A model generated the notes under the pieces. That model was not told the origin of the DNA. It was given only the letters and a program-made list of their open reading frames with translations, and did no database searches. The translations under genes were made by a program, and so were the position numbers. Shown in pieces: positions 24,895-44,081 of a stretch of DNA of 45,177 bases; the stretch's first letter is position 1, and every line of letters starts with the position of its first letter. The DNA comes from Klenkia terrae (lineage in GTDB: Bacteria > Actinomycetota > Actinomycetes > Mycobacteriales > Geodermatophilaceae), in NCBI RefSeq assembly GCF_900491935.1, contig NZ_UEXK01000004.1, positions 2,941,095 to 2,986,271 on the forward strand, written 5' to 3'.

Positions 24895-24970
24895 GCCGCC
24901 TTAGCTCAGTCGGTAGAGCATCTCACTCGTAATGAGAAGGTCGTCGGTTCGATTCCGACAGGCGGCTCCA
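24895..24970 (+). tRNA. tRNA-Thr (anticodon CGT)
   Basis: A 76-base cloverleaf. The acceptor stem pairs GCCGCCT with AGGCGGC, the discriminator base is T and CCA is encoded. The anticodon stem TCTCA/TGAGA holds the loop CTCGTAA with anticodon CGT at 24928-24930, reading ACG. The T arm is GTCGG-TTCGATT-CCGAC. It sits between holB and the TetR gene, and no integrated element follows it. Confidence 0.97.
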
Positions 24971-39840: not shown

Positions 39841-40833
39841 ATGCGCACCAGCGCCCGCACAGCAACCATCACGTTCGCCGTCGCCACGGTGCTCGCCACC
39901 GCCGCCTGCGGGGAGTCCGGCTCCTCGGGCACCAGCACCGGCGGGGGCGGCGAGGCCTCCGGGGAGGCCTGCGCGCCGATCGCCGGCGACCAGCTCGTCG
40001 TCCTCGAGGACGACAAGGGCCTGCAGGCCGTGGACAACATCATCCCGGCCATCAACTCCGCCTACGCCGGCAGCAACCCCGGCGTGCTCGACGTGCTCAG
40101 CTCCATCTCCTCGGTGCTGACCACCGAGGACCTGGTGGCGCTGAACTCCGGCGTGGACATCGAGCGGAAGTCCGCCGAGGACGTCGCGGCGGCCTACGTC
40201 GAGGAGCAGGGCCTGGGGGCCGACGCCGCGGCCGGCACCGGCACCGTGCGGGTCGGGGCCGCGGGCTTCACCGAGAGCCAGATCCTCGCCAACGTCTACG
40301 CCGACACCCTGACCGCCGCCGGCTACACCGCCACGGTGCAGACCGTGGGTCAGCGCGAGACCTACCTGCCGGCCCTCCAGAGCGGCGAGTTCGACGTCTT
40401 CCCCGAGCACGTGGGCACGCTGACCGAGTACCTGGACGGCAACCCCGACGAGGCCGTCGCCAGCGCCGACCTGGACGCCACCGTCGAGGCGCTCCGCCCG
40501 CTGGGCGGCGCGGTCGGCCTGACCTTCGGCGAGCCGGCCGAGGCCGCCGACGAGAACGCCTTCGCCATCACCACCACGCTGCAGGACGAGCTGGGCGGCA
40601 TCACCACGCTGTCCGAGCTGGCCGACGCCTGCTCCGACGGCTCGCTGGTGCTCGGCGGCACCCCGGAGTGCCCGACGCGGCCCTTCTGCCAGCCCGGCCT
40701 CGAGGAGACCTACGGCTTCACCTTCGCCCAGGTGAACGACTACGACCTCGGTGCCCCGACGAACAACGCCCTCAAGCAGGGCGAGATCTCCCTGGCGCTG
40801 GCCCTGTCCACGGACCCGGTCTTCGCCCAGTAG
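39841..40833 (+). CDS. Osmoprotectant-binding lipoprotein 1, circularly permuted
   Basis: 330 residues. A lipoprotein signal ends LATAAC with the lipidated cysteine at 23, followed by a Gly/Ser linker. Residues 48-125 (from APIAGDQLVVLEDDKGLQAV to AAAYVEEQGL) match the C-terminal third of OpuCC-type proteins. Residues 135-330, from TVRVGAAGFTESQILANVYA to LSTDPVFAQ, match the N-terminal two thirds. The order is therefore circularly permuted around a short linker at 126-134. It captures solute for the permeases. A close paralogue follows. Confidence 0.9.
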   Translation: MRTSARTATITFAVATVLATAACGESGSSGTSTGGGGEASGEACAPIAGDQLVVLEDDKGLQAVDNIIPAINSAYAGSNPGVLDVLSSISSVLTTEDLVALNSGVDIERKSAEDVAAAYVEEQGLGADAAAGTGTVRVGAAGFTESQILANVYADTLTAAGYTATVQTVGQRETYLPALQSGEFDVFPEHVGTLTEYLDGNPDEAVASADLDATVEALRPLGGAVGLTFGEPAEAADENAFAITTTLQDELGGITTLSELADACSDGSLVLGGTPECPTRPFCQPGLEETYGFTFAQVNDYDLGAPTNNALKQGEISLALALSTDPVFAQ

Positions 40834-40835
40834 GA

Positions 40836-40902
40836 GAAGGACCTGGCTGCCCCCCACGACGCGCTCCGCACGCCGCGGGTCCCTGCAGCCAGGCCGTTCC
40901 AG
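40836..40902 (+). repeat. 67-base hairpin element, copy A
   Basis: It starts GAAGGACC three bases after the stop of binding protein 1. The arm CCTGGCTGC (40842-40850) pairs fully with GCAGCCAGG (40885-40893), and GGCCGTTCCAG ends the element. The core contains CCCACGACGCGCTCCGCACG. Copy B, inverted at 42107-42173, has the same length and core but different arms. It may end transcription of the first binding-protein gene. Confidence 0.88.
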
Positions 40903-40911
40903 CACGTTCGT

Positions 40912-40944
40912 CGAGGCGGGCACCCGGACGGGGTGCCCGCCTCG
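40912..40944. terminator. Terminator with perfect 14-bp stem
   Basis: CGAGGCGGGCACCC (40912-40925) pairs perfectly with 40931-40944 around the loop GGACG. It follows the copy A hairpin and precedes the promoter of the second binding-protein gene. Two hairpins in a row indicate that the two binding-protein genes are transcribed separately. Confidence 0.88.
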
Positions 40945-40989
40945 CGGCGTTCCCGGGGGCTAACGGTTCGGTCACGGTGTCCCGTGGGA

Positions 40990-41097
40990 TTTGCGCTGGT
41001 CAGGGCGCACAGGGTTCGCTCAGGAGCCGCGGGACACCTCCCGCCGGACACGCGTCGCCCCCACGTCCGGGGGCGCGGGACACAGAAGGCGGACTCC
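40990..41097 (+). promoter_or_regulatory. Promoter and structured leader of the second binding-protein gene
   Basis: TTTGCGC (40990-40996) lies 39 bases from stem 1 GCGGGA / TCCCGC (41029-41034, 41039-41044). Stem 2 is GCCCCC / GGGGGC (41057-41062, 41069-41074) with a six-base loop. Compared with the first leader, a T.G pair in stem 2 has become C-G while loop bases differ, so pairing is kept. Confidence 0.6.
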
Positions 41098-42093
41098 ATG
41101 CGCACGCGCGCCCGCATCCTCACCACCACGTTCGCCCTCACCGCGGTGCTGGCCACCGCCGCCTGCGGTGAGTCCGGCTCCTCCGGCAACGGCGGGGGCG
41201 GCTCCGACGGCGGCCAGGCCTCCGGCGACACCTGCGCCCCCATCGCCGACGACCAGCTCGTGGTGATGGAGGACGACAAGGAGCTCCAGGCCGTCGACAA
41301 CATCATCCCGGCGCTGGTGACCTCCTACGCCGAGGCCAACCCCACCGCGATCGAGGCGCTGAACACCGTGTCCTCGGTGCTCACCACCGAAGACCTCGTC
41401 GGCCTGAACGCCGCCGTGGACGTCGAGCGCCAGAGCGCCATCGACGCCGCGGCCGCCTACGTCGAGGACAACGACCTCGGCTCGGGCGTCACCGGCAGCG
41501 GCGCCGTCACCGTCGGGGCCGCCAGCTTCACCGAGAGCCAGATCCTGGCCAACGTCTACGCCGGTGCGCTGAACAACGCCGGCTTCACCGCCACGGTGCA
41601 GACCGTCGGCCAGCGCGAGGCCTACCTGCCCGCCCTGCAGGCCGGTCAGTTCCAGGTCTTCCCGGAGTACGTGGGCACGGTCGCCGAGTACCTGGACGGC
41701 AACCCCGACGAGGCCGTCGTCTCCGGTGACCTGGACTCCAGCGTCGAGACCCTGCGCAGCCTGGGCACCCCCGCCGGCCTGACCTTCGGCGAGCCGGCCG
41801 AGGCCGAGGACAGCAACGCCTTCGCCATCACCAAGGCGCTGCAGGACGAGCTGGGCGGCATCACCACGATGTCCGAGCTGGCCGAGGCGTGCTCGGACGG
41901 CTCGCTGATCCTGGGCGCCACCCCCGAGTGCCCGACCCGGCCGTTCTGCCAGATCGGGCTCGAGGACGTCTACGGCTTCCAGTTCGCCTCGCTCGGCGAC
42001 TACGACCTGGGTGCCGCGACCAACCAGGCCCTGATCCAGGGCGAGATCTCCATGGCCCAGGTCCTGTCCACGGACCCGATCCTGGCCCAGTAG
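41098..42093 (+). CDS. Osmoprotectant-binding lipoprotein 2, circularly permuted
   Basis: 331 residues, a close tandem paralogue of the preceding gene over its full length including signal peptide (LATAAC, cysteine 23). It has the same permuted order: CAPIADDQLVVMEDDKELQAV early, VTVGAASFTESQILANVYAG in the middle, and LSTDPILAQ at the end. Differences cluster in the linkers and around the domain 1 loops (for example FPEYVGTVAEYL for FPEHVGTLTEYL), which may alter substrate preference. Its own leader and terminator suggest separate control. Confidence 0.9.
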   Translation: MRTRARILTTTFALTAVLATAACGESGSSGNGGGGSDGGQASGDTCAPIADDQLVVMEDDKELQAVDNIIPALVTSYAEANPTAIEALNTVSSVLTTEDLVGLNAAVDVERQSAIDAAAAYVEDNDLGSGVTGSGAVTVGAASFTESQILANVYAGALNNAGFTATVQTVGQREAYLPALQAGQFQVFPEYVGTVAEYLDGNPDEAVVSGDLDSSVETLRSLGTPAGLTFGEPAEAEDSNAFAITKALQDELGGITTMSELAEACSDGSLILGATPECPTRPFCQIGLEDVYGFQFASLGDYDLGAATNQALIQGEISMAQVLSTDPILAQ

Positions 42094-42106
42094 CGCACGG
42101 GACCGT

Positions 42107-42173
42107 CTGGAACGGCCCCCTCGCAGGGACCCACGGCGTGCGGAGCGCGTCGTGGGGGGCGAGGGGGTCCTTC
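42107..42173 (-). repeat. 67-base hairpin element, copy B (inverted)
   Basis: Read on the minus strand it begins GAAGGACC and ends CCGTTCCAG like copy A. The arms are CCCCCTCGC and GCGAGGGGG (42159-42167 and 42116-42124 on the plus strand). Relative to copy A five consecutive base pairs differ and all still pair. The core differs from copy A at one base. It fills the gap between binding protein 2 and the convergent DUF1684 gene, reaching the latter's stop codon. Confidence 0.88.
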
Positions 42174-42778
42174 TAGTACCAGCCGCCCTCGGGCAGCTGC
42201 TCGCCGGCGGCGACGACGGCGGCCACCCGGTTGCCGGCCTGGGGGAGCGGGCAGGACCAGCGCGGGTCGTAGGTGCAGCTCGGGTGGTAGGCGAAGTTGA
42301 GGTCCACCACCAGCCGGTCGCCGTCCCCGCCCAGGTCGGCGCCCTTGACGGTGTCCAGGAGGTAGCGGCCGCCGCCGTAGGTGGTCGCGCCCGAGGAGCC
42401 GTCGTGCAGCGGCAGGAAGAGCCCGCCGGCGTAGCCGCGCAGCCACCAGACGTCCAACCGGCCGACCTCGCCGAGGGTCACCCGCCCGATCCGCTCCATC
42501 CCCACCACGCCGTCGTCTGCGGTGGGCAGCTCCAGGCGCTGCGGTGCCGCGTCCTCCAGCGGCACGACGAACCGCATCGCCGGGTCGTAGGGGGCGACCG
42601 GGATGCCGGTGAACGCCGTCCGCGCCGAGTCCCCCAACGGGGAGTCCGGGTGGTCGGTGAACAGGGCGTCCCGGCCGGCCCGCCAGGTCGCCCAGCCGGC
42701 CGCGGGGTCCTCCGCGGCGCGGGCCTCGGCGTAGAGCGCGTGCACCCGGCGGCGCCAGTCCAGCAGCGTTGTGGTCAC
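42173..42778 (-). CDS. DUF1684 protein
   Basis: 201 residues, the usual family length. It opens TTLLDWRRRVHALYAEAR and holds FTDHPDSPL, GGGRYLLDTVKGAD and LNFAYHPSCTYDPRWSCPLP, the conserved blocks of DUF1684. The function is unknown; the two cysteines in the last block are conserved in the family as I recall. GTG 42778 is chosen because family members begin about ten residues before this block, while the longer frame is a shadow of the divergent gene. Confidence 0.85.
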   Translation of the reverse strand: MTTTLLDWRRRVHALYAEARAAEDPAAGWATWRAGRDALFTDHPDSPLGDSARTAFTGIPVAPYDPAMRFVVPLEDAAPQRLELPTADDGVVGMERIGRVTLGEVGRLDVWWLRGYAGGLFLPLHDGSSGATTYGGGRYLLDTVKGADLGGDGDRLVVDLNFAYHPSCTYDPRWSCPLPQAGNRVAAVVAAGEQLPEGGWY

Positions 42779-42850
42779 CGCCCCCAGCCTGCCAGGGGCG
42801 GCCCGGGACGGCGACGCGGTGACCGGGACCGGATCGTCACACACGCCCCG

Positions 42851-42856
42851 TACCCT
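42851..42856 (+). promoter_or_regulatory. -10-like box of the DUF6779 gene
   Basis: TACCCT, 7 bases before GTG 42864; leaderless arrangement that decides this start against the longer frame. Confidence 0.5.
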
Positions 42857-42863
42857 CTGGCCC

Positions 42864-44081
42864 GTGACTGGCGGGCCGGGTGACCTGGGGACGAGTGCTC
42901 CACGACCGCGACCGCCGGAGTCCCGCCTGTCCCCGGTCGTGCGGATCGCCGGGCTGGTGCTCGGGTTCGCCCTGGCCATCGCCGCCACGCTGGCGGTCTT
43001 CCTCACCGACAACGCGCTCTACCTGCGGCTGGCGGTGATCGCGGTCGCCTGGGCCTTCGTCATCGCGGCGTTCTCGGCCGGGCGGCGCAAGACCGACCAG
43101 GCCGTCGCCGAGGGCCGGGAGAACCAGCTGCGCCAGGCCTACTCGCTGGAGCTGGAGCGGGAGGTCGCCGCCCGCCGGGAGTACGAGCTGAAGCTGGAGA
43201 ACCAGCTGCGGCGCGAGACCCAGGAGGCGATGCGGGCGGAGATGGACAAGCTCCGGGCCGACCTGGCCTCCCTCGCCGGTCTGCGCGACCAGCTCGTCGG
43301 CCTGGGCGAGCTGCAGGCCGACATGGGCCGGCTGCGGCACGAGCTGACCGAGCAGCTGTCCGGCGAGATGCTCGTCGAGCGGATCGTGATGCGCACCCAG
43401 TCCATCCGGATGCCGGCCGAGCGGGCCGAGCTGGGTGCCGCGGGCAGCGACGTCATCGACGGCGACGCCGGCACGGGGTGGACCGGCGCGTCCCGGTCCG
43501 CCGAGGACGACCTCGTCGCGCGGGTGCAGCCGCCGCCGGTCCCGTCCGCACCGGACCGCCCGGCCGCGGAGCCGCCGTCGCCGTTCGCCTGGCTGGCCCC
43601 GCGGGAGCGCCCGGCCGAGCCGCCGTCCCGGCACGCCAGCCCGACCCAGGACGACCGGGTCGCCCGGCCCGACAGCGCCGCCCGGCACGGCACCGCAGAG
43701 CAGCCCGCCGTCGTCCAGGTCCCGGCCCGGACCCCGCCGCCCGTGCAGCCGTCCACCCCGCCGGTCGAGCCCCCGCCGGTCGAGCCTGCTCCGCCGGTCC
43801 GGGCCGAGCCGGCCAGCGCCGCTGGCCCGGCTACCGAGCTGTGGGCAGCGCCGGAGGCCGAGGCGGCTCCGCACCGTCGCCGGGCGCCGGAGGAGCCGGC
43901 CCCGCCGCCGGCCGAGCCCGAGCACGAGCCCGACGTCTTCGAGACCGCCGGTCACCAGCGGCTCACCGAGATCCTGGCCGAGTCGGGGTCGACCGCCGGC
44001 GGCGGTCGCCGTCGCCGTCGCTACCGCGAGGACGACGACCCGGGCGAGGACGACGTCCTCGCCCGGGTGCTCAGCTCGTAG
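42864..44081 (+). CDS. DUF6779-type membrane protein with coiled coil and proline-rich tail
   Basis: 405 residues. Two adjacent membrane helices lie at about 30-70 (IAGLVLGFALAIAATLAVFL and LRLAVIAVAWAFVIAAF). A charged coiled coil follows to about 190, with QLRQAYSLELEREVAARREY. The next 180 residues are rich in Pro, Ala and Glu and presumably disordered. An RRRRR cluster precedes the acidic end. It is actinobacterial and of unknown function; the layout suggests a membrane-tethered scaffold. The last codons hold a perfect hairpin that may terminate the transcript. Confidence 0.75.
   Translation: MTGGPGDLGTSAPRPRPPESRLSPVVRIAGLVLGFALAIAATLAVFLTDNALYLRLAVIAVAWAFVIAAFSAGRRKTDQAVAEGRENQLRQAYSLELEREVAARREYELKLENQLRRETQEAMRAEMDKLRADLASLAGLRDQLVGLGELQADMGRLRHELTEQLSGEMLVERIVMRTQSIRMPAERAELGAAGSDVIDGDAGTGWTGASRSAEDDLVARVQPPPVPSAPDRPAAEPPSPFAWLAPRERPAEPPSRHASPTQDDRVARPDSAARHGTAEQPAVVQVPARTPPPVQPSTPPVEPPPVEPAPPVRAEPASAAGPATELWAAPEAEAAPHRRRAPEEPAPPPAEPEHEPDVFETAGHQRLTEILAESGSTAGGGRRRRRYREDDDPGEDDVLARVLSS
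44039..44067. terminator. Perfect 13-bp hairpin inside the 3' end of the DUF6779 gene
   Basis: CCCGGGCGAGGAC (44039-44051) pairs fully with 44055-44067 around the loop GAC. It lies in the last coding part, 14 bases before the stop, where the gene converges on the SDR gene, so it may terminate both. Confidence 0.65.

Follow-up and report, generated by a model that had tools for sequence, protein, structure and literature searches.

The question raised by this locus is what two copies of one hairpin, nearly alike in core and different in arms, are doing beside a pair of tandem paralogous genes. The window, by which we mean the whole stretch of 45,177 nt of Klenkia terrae DNA that was analysed, holds copy A at 40836..40902, with its folding strand on the minus strand, and copy B at 42107..42173, with its folding strand on the plus strand; both are 67 nt long and of type 1. 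Copy A abuts gene 1 (39841..40833, plus strand), which encodes a substrate-binding protein; gene 2 (41098..42093, plus strand), a tandem paralogue of gene 1, lies between the two copies; and copy B abuts gene 3 (42173..43012, minus strand), given here as the longest open reading frame, its start codon being uncertain. An earlier note on this DNA had described two mutually inverted 67-base copies which, once turned in one direction, share their ends, have cores one base apart and differ at five neighbouring arm bases with all pairs kept, and the sequence agrees at each of these points. The observation is correct, and the two hairpins are part of a larger repeat family.

Our preferred reading, to which we assign a probability of roughly 0.57, is that they belong to a REP-like, non-autonomous family of dispersed palindromes of the Geodermatophilaceae, in which a folded single strand is used for spread without a known RAYT. 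Judged from sequence comparison, the family is probably mobile.

A repeat family of the Geodermatophilaceae

The exact 18-base core occurs in 10 copies in the K. terrae genome, more than expected by chance, and the reversed pattern does not occur; with up to three mismatches, a 22-base core gives 22 occurrences, compared with 12 for the reversed control. A covariance model was built from those 22 copies and run on genomes. In the 4.81-Mb K. terrae genome it yields 56 matches at E ≤1, 53 of which score at least 41 bits. Within the window, a family model whose source copies include A and B themselves scores them at 91.7 and 91.6 bits, respectively (E ~3e-21, filters off), and the next non-overlapping match at 15.8 bits. 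Matches at E ≤0.01 are present in 27 of 60 genomes, K. terrae included; the element is found in 27 of the 36 genomes of the family and, at the same threshold, in none of the 24 from the rest of the order. The earlier suspicion of a dispersed element with many more copies is borne out by these numbers.

Copy number ranges from 5 to at least 130 per positive genome. The 60-genome search scored the best 86 candidates per genome, so that its high counts are lower bounds; with the best 150 candidates scored, two congeners have at least 117 and at least 130 copies. A third congener, G025, which is 99-100% complete, has a single weak match (E 0.057). Eight of the nine element-free family genomes are drafts of 2.5-3.7 Mb in at least 190 contigs.

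A scan of 84,980 species with an exact pattern, one that misses some element types, found 78 stretches, all 78 under Geodermatophilaceae names (Klenkia, Modestobacter, Blastococcus, Geodermatophilus, Goekera or Geodermatophilaceae in their titles). One exact pattern gave no stretch in viral contigs, and copy B as a query at 1e-5 matched no plasmid or phage; carriage by phage or plasmid was ruled out by these searches. Among the literature matches listed there is no report of such a repeat in the Geodermatophilaceae, and the excerpts of PMC9686282, PMC3733652 and PMC12306157 name none.

A set of 201 distinct copies was compiled from the matches, after 6 of 207 entries were removed as duplicates; because several represent one gene end sampled in different species, the copies are not independent. 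Weak wrong-strand matches and two coreless hairpins (L114, L115) were left out. A poorly paired 41-bit match at L113:1501-1568, ~0.5 kb from a dnaA domain, may be due to chance.

Constant and variable parts of the unit

The unit consists of CGGCC, an arm, CAGGGNCCC, an inner stem, GGGGGGC, the second arm and GGTCCTTC. Matches are 64-71 nt long, and 148 of the 201 copies measure 67 nt. Part of the copies carry a 5′ extension, GGTGACGTGMTGGAACGG, with GGAAC in 83/201, GGTGA in 53/201 and both in 43/201; its TGA is the stop codon of some convergent genes, and its GACG reads CGTC on the other strand.

Arms and inner stem vary between copies with pairing kept. The arms could be parsed in 185 of the 201 copies (the remaining 16 were not parsed) and comprise 73 distinct sequences, in line with the claim that the stem sequence is free. 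Their 1662 cells hold 1582 Watson-Crick pairs, 44 G.T pairs and 36 mismatches, some of the last being parsing failures, and 97.8% are paired; compensated arms in so many further copies support the proposed selection on structure. The companion claim of a fixed core has to be given up. At the same gene end, core types as well as arms differ between species, with pairing mostly held, so the core cannot be called constant; across the wider set its changes mostly preserve pairing, and it sorts into types. The covariance-model search of this and related genomes that the earlier note had proposed thus returned many matches with compensated arms, mostly extragenic, but not the constant core. Little variation is seen in the two ends, in the AGGG of the internal loop or in the innermost pairs.

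Loops of the types C-GNA-G and C-NN-G, which form tight turns, are both present. GTAG stands at any hairpin foot in at most 20 of the 201 copies, and CGTC on the non-folding strand occurs beside the 5′ foot, within the extension, in 52 and less often at other positions; neither is an invariant foot tag in this set.

Most copies are single, and A and B are, with two other pairs, inverted neighbours within 3 kb. Head-to-tail arrays of four and two copies were seen at L261:5560-5807 (Geodermatophilus telluris) and L244:5096-5218, with a spacing of 63-64 nt and the 3′ arm on the last copy only. In genome G032, L406 (the gene end that L352 also represents) shows an inverted element beside a stop codon that has apparently replaced the 3′ half of an earlier one. 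The coreless hairpins L114 and L115 lie behind stop codons and have element-like arms; they and two others at groEL ends (below) are either remnants or ancestors of the element.

Position at stop codons

In 169 of the 201 copies a coding stop could be detected in the interval from -120 to +60 relative to the GAAGGACC end, and in these it lies at most 2 nt away in 140 and at most 6 nt away in 151. At the other end of the element 114 stops were found; 7 of these lie no more than 2 nt away and 32 no more than 6 nt, and a secondary peak at -4 comes from the TGA of the GGTGACGTG extension. Anchoring within 2 nt of a stop is not expected of a neutral insert. TGA stops are followed by one base and then GAAGGACC in 65 of 97 cases, and TAG stops have their G in common with GAAGGACC in 30 of 45. 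By a stricter gene caller 117 of the 201 copies adjoin a called gene end, and in genome G018, two of whose loci are also within the 201-copy set, 32 of 40 copies abut a stop within 8 nt.

In the window, gene 1 ends in a TAG (40831-40833) that the GAAGGACC end of copy A follows at 2 nt; gene 3, on the minus strand, ends in a TAG that overlaps copy B by one base; and gene 2 is abutted by no anchored element end. Each copy does lie behind a binding-protein gene, as first noted, but the anchored end of copy B abuts gene 3. The opposite orientation of the copies had been offered as an argument against co-duplication with the genes; the orientation has another explanation, each element being turned according to the gene at whose stop codon it sits. 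The best NCBIfam match of gene 1 is the glycine-betaine binding protein OsmF at 79 bits, below its cut-off of 400, and gene 3 has no NCBIfam match at 1e-20.

The abutted genes are ordinary ones, including those for glutamine synthetase, citramalate synthase, GMP synthase, NusG, adenosylhomocysteinase, methylmalonyl-CoA mutase, IS481 transposase and others; L094 adjoins GroEL. Abutting genes were extracted for 26 copies and scanned for 21, and NCBIfam matches at 1e-20, some below their cut-off, were obtained for 14 of 20 abutted proteins scanned; abutted proteins such as GuaA, NusG, AhcY and MctC extend to the end of their family profiles. At L038:1501-2484 an IS481 transposase gene has its stop codon immediately followed by an element. 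Abutted genes tend to run co-directionally with replication (dnaA lies at C4:2,192,055 in K. terrae), a tendency read from copy strands with no statistical test; ordinary gene bias would explain it, and GC skew at sampled loci is noisy.

Such positions would suit a host element of mRNA 3′ ends, that is, a terminator, exonuclease block or ribosome roadblock that is selected at particular stop codons and evolves in place. It would fit, too, with the occupation of the same gene end across species by elements with different, compensated arms (adenosylhomocysteinase and GroEL-like genes), and with convergent pairs in which the element takes the place of the ordinary hairpin of an element-free congener (L361). 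We nevertheless consider it unlikely, if worth keeping in view, for several reasons. The strand that folds well is antisense to the abutted gene and is not its mRNA, and it is often antisense to both neighbours because the next gene is often in tandem. By a simple gene caller the next gene is tandem at 63 abutting copies and convergent at 42, much like the 263 and 175 at element-free gene ends; the same lack of enrichment ruled out an insulation of convergent genes. Behind copy A there is, moreover, a separate perfect inverted repeat with 14-nt arms 5 nt apart (40912..40944), which is the likelier ordinary terminator of gene 1; a relative that lacks element A has retained a similar hairpin. 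Further hairpins follow at groEL in several species, and a scan for terminators, taken as a hairpin with a T run behind it and a loop of 3-8 nt, makes no terminator-like call at copy A or B. A plain terminator as the whole story is ruled out by the antisense fold, the further hairpins and the absence of a call, as the earlier note had supposed.

Occupied and empty sites

Occupied and empty orthologous sites exist. The element is dispensable, because congeners range from at least 117 and at least 130 copies to one weak match. Nine of 12 gene ends occupied in G018 were located in G025, and inspection by eye of the 130 nt displayed shows no element at any of the nine and an ordinary hairpin at several; that G025 manages without it is a further point against a 3′-end function. 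Site A of the window is without the element in a relative, G005, which at site B has it in the other orientation, abutting gene 2; in K. soli (L203) both sites are occupied, with different, paired arms at A.

At the groEL end, within the genus of K. terrae, the element is present in G000, G002, G003, G005 and G006 and absent from G004, and a short hairpin lacking the core, its arms those of G000, is found in G001 and G007. The start or the whole of a shared ordinary hairpin comes next in five of the eight (95 nt shown). Treatment of the GroEL group as one orthologous site was dropped: L094 ends unlike the other five, and there are probably two paralogues. At several gene ends the element is shared between genera, which fits long retention as well.

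A plain insertion is seen at L096, between convergent stops, where five of five relatives are without the element. The copies at L253:623-689 and L225:2981-3047, at the same codon in similar genes of one Geodermatophilus genome, look like plain insertions, unaligned. At L164:1660-1860 and L103:1480-1600 the element lies within a tandem duplication of a gene end; it occurs there in one or two copies in different genomes of the genus and is absent from others.

Folding of one strand

The strand opposite to that read in the earlier note has RNA folding energies of -47.0 (A) and -49.1 (B) kcal/mol, versus -32.9 and -38.5 kcal/mol for the strand read there. DNA energies for the folding and the other strand are -22.3 versus -15.5 (A) and -24.7 versus -20.0 kcal/mol (B); for L099, a copy of the second type, the DNA model does not prefer the folding strand. 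Across the 148 copies of 67 nt, the 23 pairs comprise 2814 Watson-Crick, 472 G.T, 9 A.C and 109 other cells, A.C cells being the trace that would be expected if the opposite strand folded (an earlier pooled count of 65 A.C cells included weak wrong-strand matches; the cleaned count is 9). The second type, which has tandem G.A pairs in its inner stem, gives 87 G.T to 2 A.C in 34 copies, and 29 copies of G018 give 65 to 2. One strand, then, forms a structure of two stems and an asymmetric internal loop. In the 22 copies from the core search nine pairs are changed on both sides, a value as high in 0 of 500 shuffles and compared with 1-3 for slid structures, the tested structure having been derived from two of the 22 copies, which favours it.

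The G.T pairs, which would be G.U in RNA, and the tandem G.A pairs on one strand, together with the near-constant AGGG of the internal loop, could also come from a structured RNA transcribed off the folding strand, either an antisense RNA or an sRNA. We think this improbable: in tandem contexts that strand is transcribed by neither neighbour, a scan for promoters of the sigma-70 type makes no call in 40700-42300, and over the same interval no Rfam family reaches threshold, the best overlap with the element having E 9.8 and 15 of 268 bits, so that a known Rfam RNA was ruled out. The sole Rfam match of the window at gathering score is a tRNA gene at 24895-24967. Template switching at quasi-palindromes, which copies arm onto arm, would produce pairing without selection for structure and would account for several neighbouring pairs differing together between copies; with G.T pairs left uncorrected at fixed places (9/62, 27/47 and 30/44), and with arms one pair change apart at groEL, we give it very little weight. 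Harder still to credit is a site in double-stranded DNA at which a chromosome-organising or regulatory protein binds, with the palindrome reflecting the symmetry of that site; this suits the conserved blocks and dispersed copies but gives no reason for one-strand wobble or for variable but paired arms, and G025 manages without it.

Relation to known repeats and possible mobility

If the element is a REP-like palindrome as we prefer, its folded single strand, probably ssDNA, would be recognised by a putative enzyme during copying to new places, in parallel with the action of TnpA-REP on REP hairpins. Copies would be directed to stop codons or would survive best there, where they may slow terminating ribosomes and so damp the abutted gene, as has been reported for E. 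coli REPs, which are said to stall ribosomes when they lie no more than 15 nt from a stop (excerpt of PMC12306157).

REPs lie near the 3′ ends of ORFs, mostly between genes, some supplying a TAG stop and some lying inside ORFs (excerpt of PMC3733652). TnpA-REP works on a single folded strand, which it cleaves at a CT next to the hairpin, and one group of REPs has an irregular stem (PMC8266576, in excerpt). The present element resembles REP, BIME and REPIN sequences in being a short palindrome present many times in a genome, for the most part outside genes and close to their 3′ ends, and resembles REPs in its strand-specific single-strand fold (472:9, 87:2 and 65:2 G.T:A.C). Unlike REPs, it is 64-71 nt long with a two-part stem, is without an invariant GTAG or CGTC tag, has one end ~2 nt from a stop in most copies and folds well on the strand antisense to the abutted gene; its arms vary freely but stay paired, and internal copies stand in place of coding DNA.

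A further difference lies in the enzyme. The spread of bacterial extragenic palindromes is usually tied to one enzyme family, RAYT. The mobiliser search used two Pfam models, PF01797 (Y1/RAYT transposase) and PF00078 (reverse transcriptase). PF01797 has no match in 23 family genomes, K. terrae included, and is present in 2 of 14 genomes from elsewhere in the order and in 5 of 14 controls; a RAYT partner was thus not found, and a Y1 transposase as mobiliser is ruled out for this model. The element is REP-like in habit yet is not filed as a REP, because the RAYT model finds nothing in the family. PF00078 has no match in the element-rich G009, G010, G011, G014 and G021, and a reverse transcriptase is ruled out for that model, its presence not following copy number.

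Other comparisons are less close. Integron attC sites, too, fold on a single strand and combine conserved parts with a stem of free sequence, but the present element is dispersed singly at gene ends. With intrinsic terminators it shares a GC-rich hairpin after a stop codon, and it differs from them in its conserved internal loop and ends, a fold bias against the mRNA strand, the further hairpin behind copy A and the lack of a terminator call at A or B. Rickettsia palindromic elements are found inside genes and outside (excerpt of PMC3733652), as is the element described here; it differs in that most copies are extragenic and that three of the four internal copies compared (L102, L108 and L110) break the frame or add a stop, L099 being in frame.

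The Geodermatophilaceae thus have a family-wide set of repeats with REP-like habits for which no RAYT was found, and congeners with more than 100 copies versus about none provide a natural experiment. Spread of hairpin repeats by a non-RAYT route, and the reason for their siting at stop codons, become testable.

Copies in place of coding DNA

Some copies, all in one genome, stand in place of coding DNA. Four gene-internal copies of K. terrae occupy 64-66 nt where relatives hold 68-71 nt of coding sequence. In L108, whose gene we take from its motifs to encode an ABC transporter ATPase, a 66-nt element faces ~71 nt of coding sequence in 15 of 15 aligned relatives (14 of the family and one of another). 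The corresponding lengths are 66 versus 69 nt for L099 (8/8 relatives), 64 versus 68 nt for L110 (4/4) and 66 versus ~69 nt for L102 (one relative). At L098, closer to the gene end, 66 nt stand against ~86 nt in two of two relatives. Cases to the contrary are the plain insertions described above, L103 in its duplication, and L101, which could be aligned to two of four relatives. The reading frame is shifted by L108 and L110, meets a stop within L102 and stays open, in frame, through L099. An assembly fault or a lineage peculiarity is possible, because the replacements all lie in one genome.

By raw count, AG stands just before 13 of the 20 copies that begin CAGAAGG. It is conceivable, and we put it forward as a doubtful proposal, that the element spreads by overwriting: a folded single strand would displace a genome stretch of about equal length, with a preferred 3′ junction AG^CAGAAGGACC in gene sense. 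It would also favour stop codons and depend on an enzyme or repair pathway that differs from both Y1 transposases and reverse transcriptases. The nested element of G032 resembles these replacement cases.
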